Source: Amycolatopsis thermalba (GTDB taxonomy: Bacteria > Actinomycetota > Actinomycetes > Mycobacteriales > Pseudonocardiaceae). Taken from it: DNA of 64,000 nt. The stretch lies in NCBI RefSeq assembly GCF_003385215.1, contig NZ_PQHW01000014.1:1-64000 (forward strand), read 5' to 3'. Made by a program: the position numbers and the translations under genes. Below are positions 2,014 through 7,435 of the stretch, in pieces (the first letter of the stretch is position 1; each line of letters opens with the position of its first letter). The notes under the pieces are model-generated. The model was not told where the DNA came from and did not search any database. It saw nothing but the letters and a program-made list of their open reading frames with translations.

Positions 2014-4134
2014 TCACCCAGCTACGCGCAGGTCCCAGCCCTCCGGCAGCCCCCGAACCTTGGCCACTTCGTGATCTGCCTCGACGTGCACGGTCAGCTC
2101 CCCGAGCCGCAGGTCCGACAACCGCACCCGGCCCCACTGCCCCGGCAGGTGCGGGCGCACCGCCAGCCGCTGCTGCGGAACGTGCGGTTCGAGCCCGAGG
2201 AACGACCGCACCAGCAGCAGCGGCGCCGCGCTCGCCCACGCCTGCGGTGAACACGACGTCGGGTAGGGGATCGGCGGGCTGAACTCCGACCGCGAGAACC
2301 CGCAGAACAGCTCGGGCAGCCGCCCGCCGAACGACGCCGCCGCGTCGAGCAGCCCGGTCGCCAGCCGCTGCGCCAGGTCCACCGCGCCCGGCAGGTGCGC
2401 GTACCGCAGCAGCCCGGCCACCGCGATCGCCGTGTCGTGCGGCCACACCGATCCGTTGTGGTAGCTCATCGGGTTGTAGGCGCCCATCGCCGAGGACAGC
2501 GTCCGCAGCCCGTACCCGCTGTCCATCTCCGGCCGGCTGAGCCGCTCGATCAGCACGGCCGCGTGCTCGTCGGTCGCGATGCCCGACCACAGGCAGTGCG
2601 CGGTGTTGCTGGTCAACGCGTCCAGCGGCTGCTTGCGCCCGTCCAGCGCGACGGCGTACCAGCCCTGGTCCGGCAGCCAGAACGCCTCCGCGAACCGCTC
2701 CCGCAACCGTTCGGCCCGCTCGCGGCAGCGCGCGGAGGTGGCCGGGTCGTTGAACGCGTCGGCCAGCTCGGCGCGCGCCAGCCAGGCCGCGTAGGCGTAG
2801 CCCTGGACCTCGCACAACGCGATCGGCGTGGTCGCCAGCCGCCCGGCCGCGTCGTTGATGCCGTCGAAGCTGTCCTTCCAGCCCTGGTTGAGCAGACCGC
2901 GGTCGGTCGCCCGCCGGTACTCGACGAACCCGTCGCCGTCGCGGTCGCCGTAGCGCTCCAGCCACTCCAGAGCCGCGTCCGCCGCCGGCAGCAGCGCCCG
3001 CACCGCGGTCTCGCCCGCACCCCAGCGCCAGCACTCGGCCAGCAGCATGACGAACAACGGCGACGCGTCCACCGTGCCGTAGTAGTGGCTGCCGCCGAGC
3101 ACCTGGTCGCTGTCCGGGCCGAGCCGCAGCTCGTGCAGGATCCGCCCGGGTTCCTCCTCGGTCAGCGGGTCGACGCGCTTGCCCTGCAGTTCCGCCAGCG
3201 TCTCCAGCGTGCCCAGCGCGAGGCCGACGTCCAGCGGCAGCGCCATCCACGCGGTGAGCAGGCTGTCCCGGCCGAACAGGGTCATGAACCACGGCGCGCC
3301 GGCCGCGACGAACGGGCGGCCGTCCTGGCTGCTGTCGTGGATCTGCAACGCGCCGAGGTCGCTTTCGGTGCGCTGCAACACCTGCGTGAGCACCGGGTCG
3401 TCGGCCGCGATCACCGTGCTCACGTCGCGCCAGGCCCGGATCTTGCGCGCCGGGCCGCTCGCCTCGACCTCCTCGCCGCGGTCGAACTGCGGCCGCACCC
3501 GCCGGTTCCCGACGGTCGGCTGCACCACGATCTCGGTCGACCACTCACCGCGCGCGGGCACGACGACGCGCCAGTTCAGCACACCGGGCGCGGTGAGCGG
3601 GTCCGCGGTGGCGCTCACCGACAGGCCACGCGAGCCGTCGGACCGGTCGCGCAGCAGCAGTTCCGACCCGGCCACGGTGGCGTCCGCCCCGCCGTGCGCG
3701 GGACGGCCCTCCTTGACCGCGAACAGGTCCGAGAAGTCCGCGTCGACGTGCAGGGTCAGCGTCGCGACGGTGTTCTCCCGGCCCAGGTTCCGCAGCGTGA
3801 TCGTCTCCCGCAGGCCGTCGCCGACCAGGCGTTCCCGCACCAGCAGCAGCGTGCTGTCGGCCTGGCCCGGCTTCGGGTTGCGGCGCAGCACGAACTGCGC
3901 CGCGAACGCCTCCGGCGAGAGGACCGACAGCGGGTGCGGGGCCTGCCCGTCCAGCCGCAGCTCCCACCGCGAGATCAGCCGCGCGTCCCGGAAGAACAGG
4001 CCGTGCGAGGTGCCCGGCTGGATGTCGCCGTTCGTGCCGGACAGGCAGAACGTGCTGCCCTCGACGAGCGTGACCGTGCCGCCCGCGCTGGTCACGGGCA
4101 CCGGTTCGCCGGCGTTGAACGCCTCCGGCGTCAT
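2014..4134 (-). CDS. Amylo-alpha-1,6-glucosidase / glycogen-debranching-like glycoside hydrolase
   Basis: This 706-residue cytoplasmic protein has no signal peptide. The first ~250 residues form the beta-rich 'glycogen debranching N-terminal' (GDE_N_bis) domain. From about residue 270 the pattern is an (alpha/alpha)6-barrel hydrolase, with acidic-aromatic motifs such as NQGWKDSFDGI, LCEVQGYAYAAW and YHNGSVWPHDTAI. Members act on alpha-glucans or glucoside compatible solutes; the substrate here is not known. The ATG at 4134 overlaps the stop of the upstream glycosyltransferase as ATGA, so translation is probably coupled. That start also removes an implausible Arg-rich leader from the longer frame. 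Both genes share the CIRCE operator at 5375-5401, suggesting glucan or glucoside remodelling during heat or misfolding stress (inference). Confidence 0.88.
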   Translation of the reverse strand: MTPEAFNAGEPVPVTSAGGTVTLVEGSTFCLSGTNGDIQPGTSHGLFFRDARLISRWELRLDGQAPHPLSVLSPEAFAAQFVLRRNPKPGQADSTLLLVRERLVGDGLRETITLRNLGRENTVATLTLHVDADFSDLFAVKEGRPAHGGADATVAGSELLLRDRSDGSRGLSVSATADPLTAPGVLNWRVVVPARGEWSTEIVVQPTVGNRRVRPQFDRGEEVEASGPARKIRAWRDVSTVIAADDPVLTQVLQRTESDLGALQIHDSSQDGRPFVAAGAPWFMTLFGRDSLLTAWMALPLDVGLALGTLETLAELQGKRVDPLTEEEPGRILHELRLGPDSDQVLGGSHYYGTVDASPLFVMLLAECWRWGAGETAVRALLPAADAALEWLERYGDRDGDGFVEYRRATDRGLLNQGWKDSFDGINDAAGRLATTPIALCEVQGYAYAAWLARAELADAFNDPATSARCRERAERLRERFAEAFWLPDQGWYAVALDGRKQPLDALTSNTAHCLWSGIATDEHAAVLIERLSRPEMDSGYGLRTLSSAMGAYNPMSYHNGSVWPHDTAIAVAGLLRYAHLPGAVDLAQRLATGLLDAAASFGGRLPELFCGFSRSEFSPPIPYPTSCSPQAWASAAPLLLVRSFLGLEPHVPQQRLAVRPHLPGQWGRVRLSDLRLGELTVHVEADHEVAKVRGLPEGWDLRVAG

Positions 4135-5348
4135 GGCCGTCCTCCGGATGGCTGCAGGGCGGGGCCGTCGTTGTCCATCTGGTCGTACGCGCGGTCGAGC
4201 GCCGAGTCCAGTGCCGCGTAGTCCCGCCGCAGGCGGCTGACCTCGACCGCCCGCCGGTACGCGGCCTCGTAACCCGCGCCCAGCCCGCCGACGTCGAAGT
4301 GCTCGGCGACGTGGGCGCGGCACTTCGCCGGGTCGAGGTGGCGGACGTCGCGCAGGGCCTGCGCCAGGTCGGCGGGGTGGTCACGCACCAGTCCGGTGAC
4401 GCCGTCGACGACGACCTCCGGCACCGCGCCGGACCGCAGCGCCACGACCGGGGTGCCGCACGCCATCGCCTCGATCATGACCATCCCGAACGGCTCCTCC
4501 CACTGGATCGGGAAGAGCAGGCAGCGGGCCTTGGCGAGCAGCTCGCGCTTCGCGGTCGCGTCGGCGACGCCGAACACGTGGTCGTTCTCGGTGAGCCGCG
4601 GCCGGACCTCCCGCTCGAAGTACTCCTTCTCGATCGGCTCGGCGCACTTGCCGGCCAGCACCAGCCGCAGCCCGGCGCGGTGCGCGGCCTCCAGCGCCAG
4701 GTGCGGCGCCTTGTCCGGGTGGAACCGGCCGAGGAACAGCGCGTAGTCGTCCTTTTCGGACTGATAAGGCCAGTCGGCGAGCCGCAGTGCGTTGTGGACG
4801 GTGCCGATCCAGTTCAGGCCCGGCGCCAGCTCTCGCTGCCGGTTGCTGATCGCCACCAGGTGCACGTCGTCGCCCAGTTCGGCGTAGTAGCGCGCCATGT
4901 CCTCGCCCACCGGGCCGTGCACGGTCGCCACCGTCGGCACACCGTAAGCGGGGGCGTTGAGCGGCCCGGCCAGCGAGTGGTCGTGCACCACGTCGACACC
5001 CTCGGTCGCGGCGAGGCGCTGCACGGCCCGGCGGGCGGCGATCGCGTGTATCACCTCGGGGTAGGGCTCGCCCAGCAGCTCCGGGACGGTGCGGTCCCAC
5101 ACCGGCACGAACCGCGCCTTGGTGCCGGGGCGGCCGGCCCCGATCAGGGTGACCTGGTGCCCGCGGTCGACGAGGGCGTCCGCGAGGTCGGCGACCACCG
5201 CCTCGACCCCGCCGTACGCCTTGGGCGGAACGTCGAAGTAGGGCGGGACGACCATCGCCACGCGGAGCGGGCGGTCGGGGTCGTCGCGGCGCACGGCGGC
5301 GTGCGAAACAGATCGGGCTTTCCACGCGGGGCGATGCGTGCTGCTCAA
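4131..5348 (-). CDS. GT4-family glycosyltransferase
   Basis: This 405-residue GT-B retaining glycosyltransferase has the N-terminal acceptor-lobe motif KAYGGVE near residue 45. In the C-lobe it has GRFHPDK (208-213), which contacts the donor phosphates, and the E-x7-E pair E285/E293 in EPFGMVMIEAMACGTP. It resembles sucrose/trehalose-type and envelope GT4 enzymes; donor and acceptor are unknown. Translation appears to start at TTG 5348, preceded by GAGGAGG with only 4 nt spacing. An internal GTG at residue 19 lacks a ribosome site. The gene overlaps the downstream glycoside hydrolase by 4 nt. The 99-nt upstream gap holds a perfect CIRCE element ending 26 nt before the start, so HrcA control is expected. 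Confidence 0.93.
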   Translation of the reverse strand: MSSTHRPAWKARSVSHAAVRRDDPDRPLRVAMVVPPYFDVPPKAYGGVEAVVADLADALVDRGHQVTLIGAGRPGTKARFVPVWDRTVPELLGEPYPEVIHAIAARRAVQRLAATEGVDVVHDHSLAGPLNAPAYGVPTVATVHGPVGEDMARYYAELGDDVHLVAISNRQRELAPGLNWIGTVHNALRLADWPYQSEKDDYALFLGRFHPDKAPHLALEAAHRAGLRLVLAGKCAEPIEKEYFEREVRPRLTENDHVFGVADATAKRELLAKARCLLFPIQWEEPFGMVMIEAMACGTPVVALRSGAVPEVVVDGVTGLVRDHPADLAQALRDVRHLDPAKCRAHVAEHFDVGGLGAGYEAAYRRAVEVSRLRRDYAALDSALDRAYDQMDNDGPALQPSGGRP

Positions 5349-5374
5349 GCTGCCTCCTCGGACCGTCTATGCAA

Positions 5375-5401
5375 TTAGCACTCTCCTGTTAAGAGTGCTA
5401 A
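5375..5401 (-). promoter_or_regulatory. CIRCE element (HrcA operator)
   Basis: TTAGCACTC-N9-GAGTGCTAA is a perfect 9+9 inverted repeat with the canonical 9-nt spacer. It lies in the 5' leader of the glycosyltransferase gene, where CIRCE is normally found upstream of groESL. HrcA repression relieved by heat shock follows from the known system. No chaperone gene lies nearby, so the target is the glycosyltransferase/debranching pair. Confidence 0.96.
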
Positions 5402-5447
5402 TACAGCGGTGATCGCCTCGGCAAGCTCCGGGTGGGCGAGATCTGCG

Positions 5448-6779
5448 TCACACGGTGATCCGCCGGGCCGCGAGGACGCCAGCGAGGCCGAGCACCGCGG
5501 TGCCGGCGAAGACCGCCAGGAACGCCGGTGCCGCCGCACCCTGGGCGGCGATGAGCGCGCCGCCGAGTCCACTCGCGACCGCCGTCGCCAGGGTCTGTGC
5601 CAGCTGGAGCGCCGCGCTGACCGATCCCTGCTGCCCGTCCGCGGCACGGCCGAGCGTTTCGGTGGTGGCGGCGTTGAACGCGACACCCATGCCGAACCCG
5701 CCGATCACCCAGCCGAGCACCGCGAGCAGCCCGGGGCCGACGAGCACGCCGTAGGCCAGCACGGCCACCCCGGCCACCAGGACCGCGAAGCCCAGCCCCA
5801 CCGCCGCCCGCCGGTTGCGGTCCCACTTCGCCTGCACCGCGGAGCCGGCCACCCAGCTCAGCGCCCCGGCCGACAGCCCCAGCCCGGCCTCGAACGCGCT
5901 CACGTGCCGCAGCTCGGTCAGCCCCAGCGGCAGGAACGCCTCCGTGCCGAAGTACACCGCACACAGCAGGAACCGCACGACCACCCCGGCCGGCACCCCG
6001 CGCCGGACGGTGAGGGTCCCGGCCGGGGTGACGTGCCGCAGCGCGACCACGGCGAGAACCAGCCCGGCCGCGGCGAGCGGGACCAGCACCGCGGCGGTGT
6101 GGAGTTCCAGCGCGGCCAGGACGACGGCGGTGCCCGCGGCGAGTGCGACGCTGGCGACCAGCGGACGCCAGCGGGAGCCGTCCGGCGCCGGGGTGGCCGG
6201 CGTGGTCAGGCCGGGGAGCGTGCACCAGGCCGCGATCGCGGCGAGCGGGATCATGGCCAGGAACACCCACCGCCAGCCGACCGTGCTCGCCACCGCCGCC
6301 GCGACGACCGGGCCGACCAGGGACGGAATCGTCCAGGCCGAGGACAGCAGCGCGAACATGCGGGCACGCAGGCGTTCCGGGTAGACCAGCCCGATCAAGG
6401 TGTAGGCCATCGCCATCACCGCGCCGACGCCGAGGCCCTGCGTGAACCGGCCGAGCAGGAACAGCGTCCACGACGGGGCGAGACCGGCCAGCGCGCTGCC
6501 GAGCGCGCTCGCGATCACCCCGGCGGCCAGTGGGCGGGCCGGCCCGCCGCGGTCGGCGGCGTGACCGGCGAGGACGGTGCCGACGATGTTCGCCAGCATC
6601 AGCGCGGCCAGCGCCCAGCCGTAGGAGCCGAGGCCGCCGAGCAGGCGGGAGATGTCCGGGAGGATGGTCGCCACGCCGAGGGACTCGAGCGCGACCAGTC
6701 CGACGGTGAGCACGATGCCGACGGTGCGAGCCCGGTAGCGGGGCGAGAGCACACCCTCGGAAGTCGAGGAGACAGTCAT
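5448..6779 (-). CDS. MFS transporter (drug/metabolite efflux type)
   Basis: This 443-residue integral membrane protein has roughly 12-14 hydrophobic helices. It carries the MFS loop 2-3 signature in variant form (GHAADRGG, residues 72-79), a GRFTQGLGVGAVMAM segment in helix 4, and a PSLVGPVVAAAVA segment typical of drug:H+ antiporters. It is divergent from a TetR-family regulator with a 44-nt gap that contains a dyad, the usual arrangement for a repressor controlling an exporter. The substrate is not predictable. The ATG at 6779 is the first start and leaves a short soluble N-terminus. Confidence 0.93.
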   Translation of the reverse strand: MTVSSTSEGVLSPRYRARTVGIVLTVGLVALESLGVATILPDISRLLGGLGSYGWALAALMLANIVGTVLAGHAADRGGPARPLAAGVIASALGSALAGLAPSWTLFLLGRFTQGLGVGAVMAMAYTLIGLVYPERLRARMFALLSSAWTIPSLVGPVVAAAVASTVGWRWVFLAMIPLAAIAAWCTLPGLTTPATPAPDGSRWRPLVASVALAAGTAVVLAALELHTAAVLVPLAAAGLVLAVVALRHVTPAGTLTVRRGVPAGVVVRFLLCAVYFGTEAFLPLGLTELRHVSAFEAGLGLSAGALSWVAGSAVQAKWDRNRRAAVGLGFAVLVAGVAVLAYGVLVGPGLLAVLGWVIGGFGMGVAFNAATTETLGRAADGQQGSVSAALQLAQTLATAVASGLGGALIAAQGAAAPAFLAVFAGTAVLGLAGVLAARRITV

Positions 6780-6823: not shown

Positions 6824-7435
6824 ATGGGCCCTGTGACGAGCACCCGGGCGGGACGGCCACGCGACGAGCGCATCGACGGGGCTGTCCGCGAGGCGACGGT
6901 GGACCTGCTGAACGAGGTGGGCTACGCGGGCCTCACGCTGGAAGCCGTGGCGAGCCGGGCGGGCACGAGCAAGCCCGCGTTGCGCCGCCGGTGGCGCGGG
7001 CGCCAGCACCTGGTCGTCGACGCACTGGTGGCCACCGTCGGCGCGGTGCCCACGCCGGACACCGGGTGCACGCGCTGCGATCTCATCGCCGGGATCCGGA
7101 CGCTCAGCGAGGCCTTCACCACCAGGATCGGACGGCGCGTGCTGCCCGCCCTGGTCGCCGACCTCGCCGACGATCCGGAACTTTCGGCGGTGTTCCTGCG
7201 CGACTACTTCCACACGCGACGGGCGTCCACCGCGCAGGCCCTGCGCCGGGGCATCGAGCGCGGCGACCTCGACCCGGACCTCGACCTGGGTCTCGTGCTC
7301 GACATGCTGGCATCCACCACCTACTACCGCGTCCTCTTCGGACACCTACCGGTCACCGGGAACCTGGCGGAGCAGGTGGTGGACGTGGTGCTGGCCGGGG
7401 TGGTCACGCCGCGGTGGCGCGGCTGCGGTCACTGA
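6824..7435 (+). CDS. TetR/AcrR-family transcriptional regulator
   Basis: This 203-residue protein has an N-terminal TetR helix-turn-helix (LTLEAVASRAGTSKPALRRRW, about residues 37-57) after a basic arm AGRPRDERI. An all-helical C-terminal ligand domain follows. It is divergent from the MFS transporter and should repress that gene and itself. The ATG at 6824 could be replaced by the GTG at 6833, which is three codons later and would give the cleaner start VTSTRAGRPRD. Its 3' end overlaps the stop of the convergent response regulator by 7 nt, with no terminator between them. Confidence 0.92.
   Translation: MGPVTSTRAGRPRDERIDGAVREATVDLLNEVGYAGLTLEAVASRAGTSKPALRRRWRGRQHLVVDALVATVGAVPTPDTGCTRCDLIAGIRTLSEAFTTRIGRRVLPALVADLADDPELSAVFLRDYFHTRRASTAQALRRGIERGDLDPDLDLGLVLDMLASTTYYRVLFGHLPVTGNLAEQVVDVVLAGVVTPRWRGCGH

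Follow-up and report, generated by a model that had tools for sequence, protein, structure and literature searches.

A predicted HrcA operator precedes a conserved glucosyltransferase-glycoside hydrolase operon in Amycolatopsis thermalba and its relatives

The stretch analyzed here, 64,000 nucleotides of the Amycolatopsis thermalba genome (contig NZ_PQHW01000014.1, positions 1 to 64,000; "the window" below), contains an operator of the type bound by the heat shock repressor HrcA, the controlling inverted repeat of chaperone expression (CIRCE), directly in front of two genes of carbohydrate metabolism. The first of these encodes a glycosyltransferase of family 4 (GT4), and the second encodes a glycoside hydrolase resembling debranching enzymes. 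The features of the locus are listed below.

5375..5401, minus strand: CIRCE operator, a palindrome in the 5' leader/promoter region of the GT4-hydrolase operon; exact match, recurring in relatives
5419..5424, minus strand: TTGCCG, -35-like element of a putative promoter; sequence, 17 bp before CIRCE
5353..5359, minus strand: ribosome binding site GAGGAGG; sequence, similar in relatives
4131..5348, minus strand: GT4-family glucosyltransferase, TTG start, 405 amino acids; Pfam, sequence and fold comparison, closest solved relative the glucosylsucrose synthase tll1591 (TeGSS)
2014..4134, minus strand: debranching-enzyme-like glycoside hydrolase, ATG start, 706 amino acids; GDE_N_bis and MGH1-like/GDE_C domains
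5448..6779, minus strand: major facilitator superfamily (MFS) transporter, upstream of the GT4 gene; profile search
6824..7435, plus strand: TetR-type regulator by reading of the sequence alone, divergent, beyond the MFS gene

An earlier note on this DNA had described an exact 9-9-9 CIRCE element in the 5' leader of a GT4 and debranching-like gene pair joined by an ATGA overlap, and we confirm both observations. Positions 5375-5401 read exactly TTAGCACTC-N9-GAGTGCTAA, the sole match in the window at 3 or fewer mismatches, where the mean expected by chance is 0.01. The operator lies 26 nt before the TTG start of the GT4 gene, with the GAGGAGG inside that interval, and the two genes overlap by ATGA at 4131-4134. 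Pfam assigns Glycos_transf_1/Glyco_transf_4 to the GT4 protein and GDE_N_bis, MGH1-like_GH, and GDE_C to the hydrolase. A TTG stands 16 to 17 bp upstream of CIRCE in all 21 Pseudonocardiaceae sequences aligned for their operator (TTGC in 19 of them), so the left CIRCE arm would overlap the -10 region of the putative promoter; a CATAA ends where CIRCE starts in 6 of the 7 aligned Mycobacteriaceae sequences. The start codon of the close family orthologs with CIRCE is TTG in 20 of 21 cases and GTG in one (L025), with a purine-rich stretch resembling a ribosome binding site ahead of it.

The host genome encodes hrcA (TIGR00331, 316.5 bits; cut-off, 197.2). A scan of the whole genome at up to 3 mismatches returned seven CIRCE-like sites, of which the one at GT4 is the best and the only perfect one. 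Single-mismatch sites lie upstream of groES-groEL1 and at the start of a gene for an FmdB-family zinc-ribbon protein of the Ruc type, groEL2 has a tandem pair of sites 7 nt apart with 2 mismatches each (L009 313-373, G000:C192), and the remaining sites lie at an ABM-domain gene (2 mismatches, core GAACTC) and a TetR-type gene (3 mismatches). A census of 19 congeneric genomes with the degenerate pattern TTRGCACTC-N9-GAGTGCYAA, at no more than 1 mismatch, gave 67 sites, and the reversed control pattern gave none. All 67 are found at groES, groEL2, the FmdB/Ruc-type gene, or GT4. The 54 sites outside the host genome that do not adjoin a GT4 match divide evenly among groES, groEL2, and the Ruc-type gene (18 each, none elsewhere), with two groEL2 sites in G198 and none in G234, and the other 13 comprise 4 in the host genome and 9 before GT4 orthologs. 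The GT4 site is present in 10/10 congeneric genomes with a close GT4 ortholog and in 0/9 of the others, six of which (all but G640 to G642) were searched at the protein level and have no close ortholog (G218 has only relatives at 55 to 58%).

The groES, groEL2, and FmdB/Ruc-type classes match the HrcA/CIRCE regulon of Mycobacterium tuberculosis (groES-groEL1, groEL2, and ruc), with the same operator and the same repressor family; the host FmdB-family gene is a candidate ruc ortholog, an assignment set by family and operator alone. The GT4-hydrolase operon is a carbohydrate addition that is not among the four genes of the M. tuberculosis HrcA list. The view that CIRCE serves chaperone-type genes needs refining in that a non-Hsp60 gene, the FmdB/Ruc-type gene, is already a target in this group. 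Because the target set of the genus is so small and clean (67/67 in four classes), the conservation of a fourth, metabolic class argues strongly for a sugar pathway in the heat shock response. We regard control of the predicted operon by HrcA as very probable, and the regulatory part of the earlier note, an HrcA-regulated sugar operon, is well supported at the level of sequence.

Two other places in the host genome deserve mention. The start of the ABM-domain (monooxygenase-like) gene carries a perfect palindrome of CIRCE shape with another core, TTAGAACTC-N9-GAGTTCTAA (L010 4778-4804; G000:C196:29777-29803), which is perhaps the operator of another repressor. A galU-like gene on the minus strand, under the cut-off of the GalU model, is located one predicted gene from the CIRCE-bearing FmdB/Ruc-type gene (L008 2959-4886).

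Relatives of the GT4 protein at an E value of 1e-60 or lower occur in 55 of 249 Pseudonocardiaceae genomes, and the loci of 30 of the 62 match rows (30 of the 31 best-scoring) were scanned. Twenty-three of these are close orthologs (at least 74% identity), and CIRCE is present at 2 or fewer mismatches in 21 of them; the seven more distant relatives among the scanned loci have none. Downstream of GT4, and on its strand, the hydrolase gene is present in 21 of the 23 close orthologs and in 20 of the 21 with CIRCE. Among those 21 CIRCE sequences the operator arms hold a mean of 1.93 bits per column, compared to 0.82 for the spacer, 0.54 for the 60 bases upstream, and 0.40 downstream; choosing the sequences for having CIRCE favors the arms, although this choice removed no more than 2 of the 23. 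The absence from close relatives that the earlier note had named as a possible objection was not seen, either here (CIRCE at 21/23) or in the Mycobacterium-type genus, where CIRCE accompanies GT4 in 21 of 23 GT4-bearing genomes.

That genus has a GT4 match at an E value of 1e-120 or lower in 23 of 198 genomes, with 28 copies in total, and the 21 copies with CIRCE are spread over 21 genomes, one apiece. The hydrolase follows 21/21 of the CIRCE copies compared to 2/7 of the CIRCE-less ones (within the flank). Five of the genomes have a second, CIRCE-less GT4 copy (L234 and L248 to L251), three of these also without a hydrolase in the flank. In a class-wide sample of 394 genomes, CIRCE was found at 5 of 29 further loci (those besides the window's own, out of 40 rows), namely, three Mycobacterium-type loci (L043 to L045), L059, and L060, the last with a hydrolase downstream. 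Among the 80 named loci, CIRCE occurs at seven: Prauserella, Saccharothrix, four Mycobacterium, and Allorhizocola, the last with 2 mismatches and no hydrolase in 5-kb flanks. We do not sum the counts for named and unnamed Mycobacterium loci, since the two sets share members (L079 and L247 have an identical CIRCE and are probably one species).

On a GT4 tree of 113 of the 139 loci L013 to L151 (at least 50% identity; 106 distinct), built by a quick method with Shimodaira-Hasegawa-like approximate likelihood ratio support only, the CIRCE label changes 6 times, 4 of these forced by starred branches, compared to about 29 times when shuffled; the count includes near-copies, L028 was labeled as CIRCE by hand, and some genomes were represented by two rows (among those with CIRCE, L025/L072 and L024/L073). 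There are two large CIRCE clades, one of Pseudonocardiaceae (24/25 rows) and one of Mycobacterium (7/7), and CIRCE-less Nocardia lies between them. Because the Nocardia pairs are without CIRCE, more than one gain or loss of the operator has taken place, and its history at the GT4 operon would be one of repeated gain or of a single gain followed by losses.

The nearest solved relative of the GT4 protein by both sequence and fold is tll1591, the glucosylsucrose synthase TeGSS of Thermosynechococcus, an alpha-1,2-glucosyltransferase (E value of 5.8e-61), yet the identity is only 37 to 38%. We group alr1000 of Nostoc PCC 7120 with TeGSS. Foldseek aligned the GT4 model (mean predicted local distance difference test score [pLDDT], 80.8) to TeGSS with a template modeling score of 0.70 to 0.72 by model length. 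The protein has the GT-B fold with the TeGSS active-site residues Tyr18, Arg179, and Lys184 conserved; in the pairwise alignment with tll1591, Y45, R208, K213, and W283 correspond to Tyr18, Arg179, Lys184, and Trp254, and all four are invariant in 19/19 aligned rows. In contrast, Trp10, which contacts sucrose in TeGSS, is Tyr in 17/19 of these rows and Trp in 2/19. According to the TeGSS report, the donor is UDP-glucose and the TeGSS gene adjoins its sucrose-phosphate synthase (SPS) gene, whereas the GT4 gene here adjoins a hydrolase gene (PMC9909042). The same report ties the TeGSS solute to heat and salt stress, its authors citing 4- to 20-fold increases in sucrose and glucosylsucroses under these two stresses (PMC9909042). 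The GT4 protein is probably a UDP-glucose-dependent alpha-glucosyltransferase, and since its closest relative is an alpha-1,2-glucosyltransferase, a small alpha-glucoside is favored over glycogen. The earlier note had left open glucan or glucoside metabolism; through the likeness to TeGSS, the second part is the one that gains and glycogen becomes the less favored part. We give about even chances to the product being a small protective glucoside.

The model of the hydrolase (pLDDT of 85.0) is nearest to 7vma, the amylo-alpha-1,6-glucosidase of Thermococcus gammatolerans, at 31% identity, followed by GH63 Escherichia coli YgjK at 12 to 14% identity, one entry containing a 2-O-alpha-glucosyl sugar, and it has a common fold with both along most of the chain. 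The homology to the amylo-alpha-1,6-glucosidase is nearly whole-length and includes invariant acidic residues; D421, E442, D567, and E608 are identical in 29/29 aligned rows. The two genes occur together in 41 of the 55 named loci with at least 50% identity, GT4 first in 28, the hydrolase first in 11, and otherwise arranged in 2, and some of the 14 loci without the pair end at contig edges. In Actinacidiphila (L111 1836-6089), hydrolase, galU, and GT4 genes stand in a row on one strand, with GalU over its cut-off (TIGR01099). The position of galU between the other two points to UDP-glucose as the donor and suggests a dedicated supply of it. In three Paraburkholderia loci (L142 6136-7007, L143, and L149), a GT4 relative of 39 to 41% identity is convergent to two adjacent Hsp20 genes, which may be a separate link of the GT4 family to heat shock.

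If the control by HrcA is real, the enzymes could instead remodel glycogen or another alpha-glucan, the GT4 protein elongating or priming the chain and the hydrolase debranching it so that carbon is mobilized in heat. The closeness of the hydrolase to 7vma speaks for this, as do the weak similarity of the GT4 protein to glycogen synthase models and GlgM and an alpha-glucan phosphorylase-like gene ahead of the pair in a single locus, from Sphaerisporangium (L118). However, the GT4 protein is much closer to TeGSS than to GlgM (E values of 5.8e-61 and 1.6e-11, respectively), and the gene that joins the Actinacidiphila pair is for GalU, the maker of UDP-glucose, whereas the usual donor in bacterial glycogen synthesis is ADP-glucose. 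We consider glycogen remodeling unlikely, at perhaps one chance in a few. Still less probable is that the GT4 protein, under HrcA control, glucosylates some other small molecule, either a secondary metabolite or, like cyanobacterial BGluT, a pterin cofactor. Its second-best structural relatives are indeed UDP-glucose:tetrahydrobiopterin glucosyltransferases, and a putative nonribosomal peptide synthetase part, read from the open reading frame alone, lies nearby (75-614), but TeGSS is clearly closer and the usual partner of the gene is a glycoside hydrolase. Least credible by far is that the palindrome is no HrcA site and instead terminates transcription of the upstream MFS gene or forms an RNA hairpin: although the inverted repeat lies 46 bp past that same-strand gene, the CIRCE arms and the 9-nt spacer are exact, the arms vary like those of chaperone sites (TTRG/CYAA) and in places do not preserve the base pair (e.g., TTAG with CCAA in L024), and in Mycobacterium shimoidei (L079) the predicted upstream gene points away, leaving nothing there to terminate.

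The reading that we prefer, and hold to be somewhat better than an even bet, is that the GT4-hydrolase pair belongs to the HrcA regulon and both makes an alpha-glucoside heat protectant from UDP-glucose and turns it over. HrcA bound to CIRCE would block the promoter, and heat or misfolded protein would remove active HrcA and derepress the operon along with groES-groEL1, groEL2, and the FmdB/Ruc-type gene. In Bacillus, HrcA loses activity through titration of GroEL, and this or degradation by the Pup-proteasome system would account for its loss in heat. The latter has been proposed for M. tuberculosis HrcA (PMC7448276). The GT4 protein would then transfer glucose from UDP-glucose to a small sugar acceptor in an alpha linkage, probably alpha-1,2, and the hydrolase would trim or recycle the resulting glucoside after stress. 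With maker and breaker encoded by the same operon, the pool might, speculatively, be quickly adjustable. As for the acceptor, no SPS over the curated cut-off was found in the host genome (98.5% complete; best match, 93 bits; cut-off, 576), so the sucrose used by TeGSS is probably unavailable in the host and is an unlikely acceptor. Trehalose, or another solute, would be likelier here. There is one OtsA-like (trehalose-phosphate-synthase-like) gene in the host genome, which at 533.8 bits falls short of its cut-off (564.85) but has PF00982 well over the cut-off of that family, and trehalose is a possible acceptor.

That lack of an SPS over the cut-off also weighs against the reading we prefer, as do several other observations. 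The closest solved relative of the hydrolase being an amylo-alpha-1,6-glucosidase, alpha-1,6 links would suit the enzyme better than alpha-1,2 links, and no second case of galU with the pair was found besides L111 in L001 to L151. The distribution is patchy: close GT4 orthologs occur in 23 of 249 Pseudonocardiaceae genomes, and GT4 with CIRCE occurs in only 21 of 198 Mycobacterium-type genomes. At L030 and L059 (1.5-kb flank) and at L084 (5 kb), the GT4 gene has CIRCE in front of it but no hydrolase gene in its flank. Of the close family orthologs, L028 has partly lost the right arm and L035 has no CIRCE; L035, the sole such case, is also without a hydrolase within 1.5 kb, which we count in favor of the link between operator and pair. 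In Nocardia (loci within L074 to L104), CIRCE was found at 0/22 loci at up to 4 mismatches, though 18 have both genes, and the pair thus works without HrcA elsewhere. At 21 CIRCE-less pair loci, including the 18 Nocardia loci with both genes, the HspR-associated inverted repeat (HAIR) had no match at up to 3 mismatches in about 1,000 bases before the GT4 match, and other CIRCE spacings (7, 8, 10, or 11 nt) had none at up to 4 mismatches. Half-site-like GAGTGC stretches occur upstream in two Nocardia loci (L077 and L082).

The operator is known in kind, but the literature searched contained no instance of it serving a conserved sugar operon; searches of the open-license part of PubMed Central turned up no paper that connects HrcA/CIRCE with a GT4 or debranching-like gene, which is weak evidence of absence. 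We tentatively propose, at a little under even odds, that in Pseudonocardiaceae and Mycobacterium-type bacteria HrcA switches both the protein chaperones and the synthesis and turnover of a chemical chaperone, an alpha-(1,2)-glucoside not yet described; that CIRCE was recruited to or kept at the operon in separate lineages; and that elsewhere the GT4 family has other ties to heat shock, as next to the Hsp20 genes of Paraburkholderia. For GT4-hydrolase pairs, which are spread over several actinobacterial families, CIRCE offers a hint from regulation as to the substrate. Of the sampled Mycobacterium-type genomes, about 1 in 10 (21/198) has a carbohydrate operon in its predicted HrcA regulon. If the proposal is true, heat damage may call up protein and chemical protection together, and it becomes a direct question whether misfolding sensed through HrcA switches on a compatible solute.

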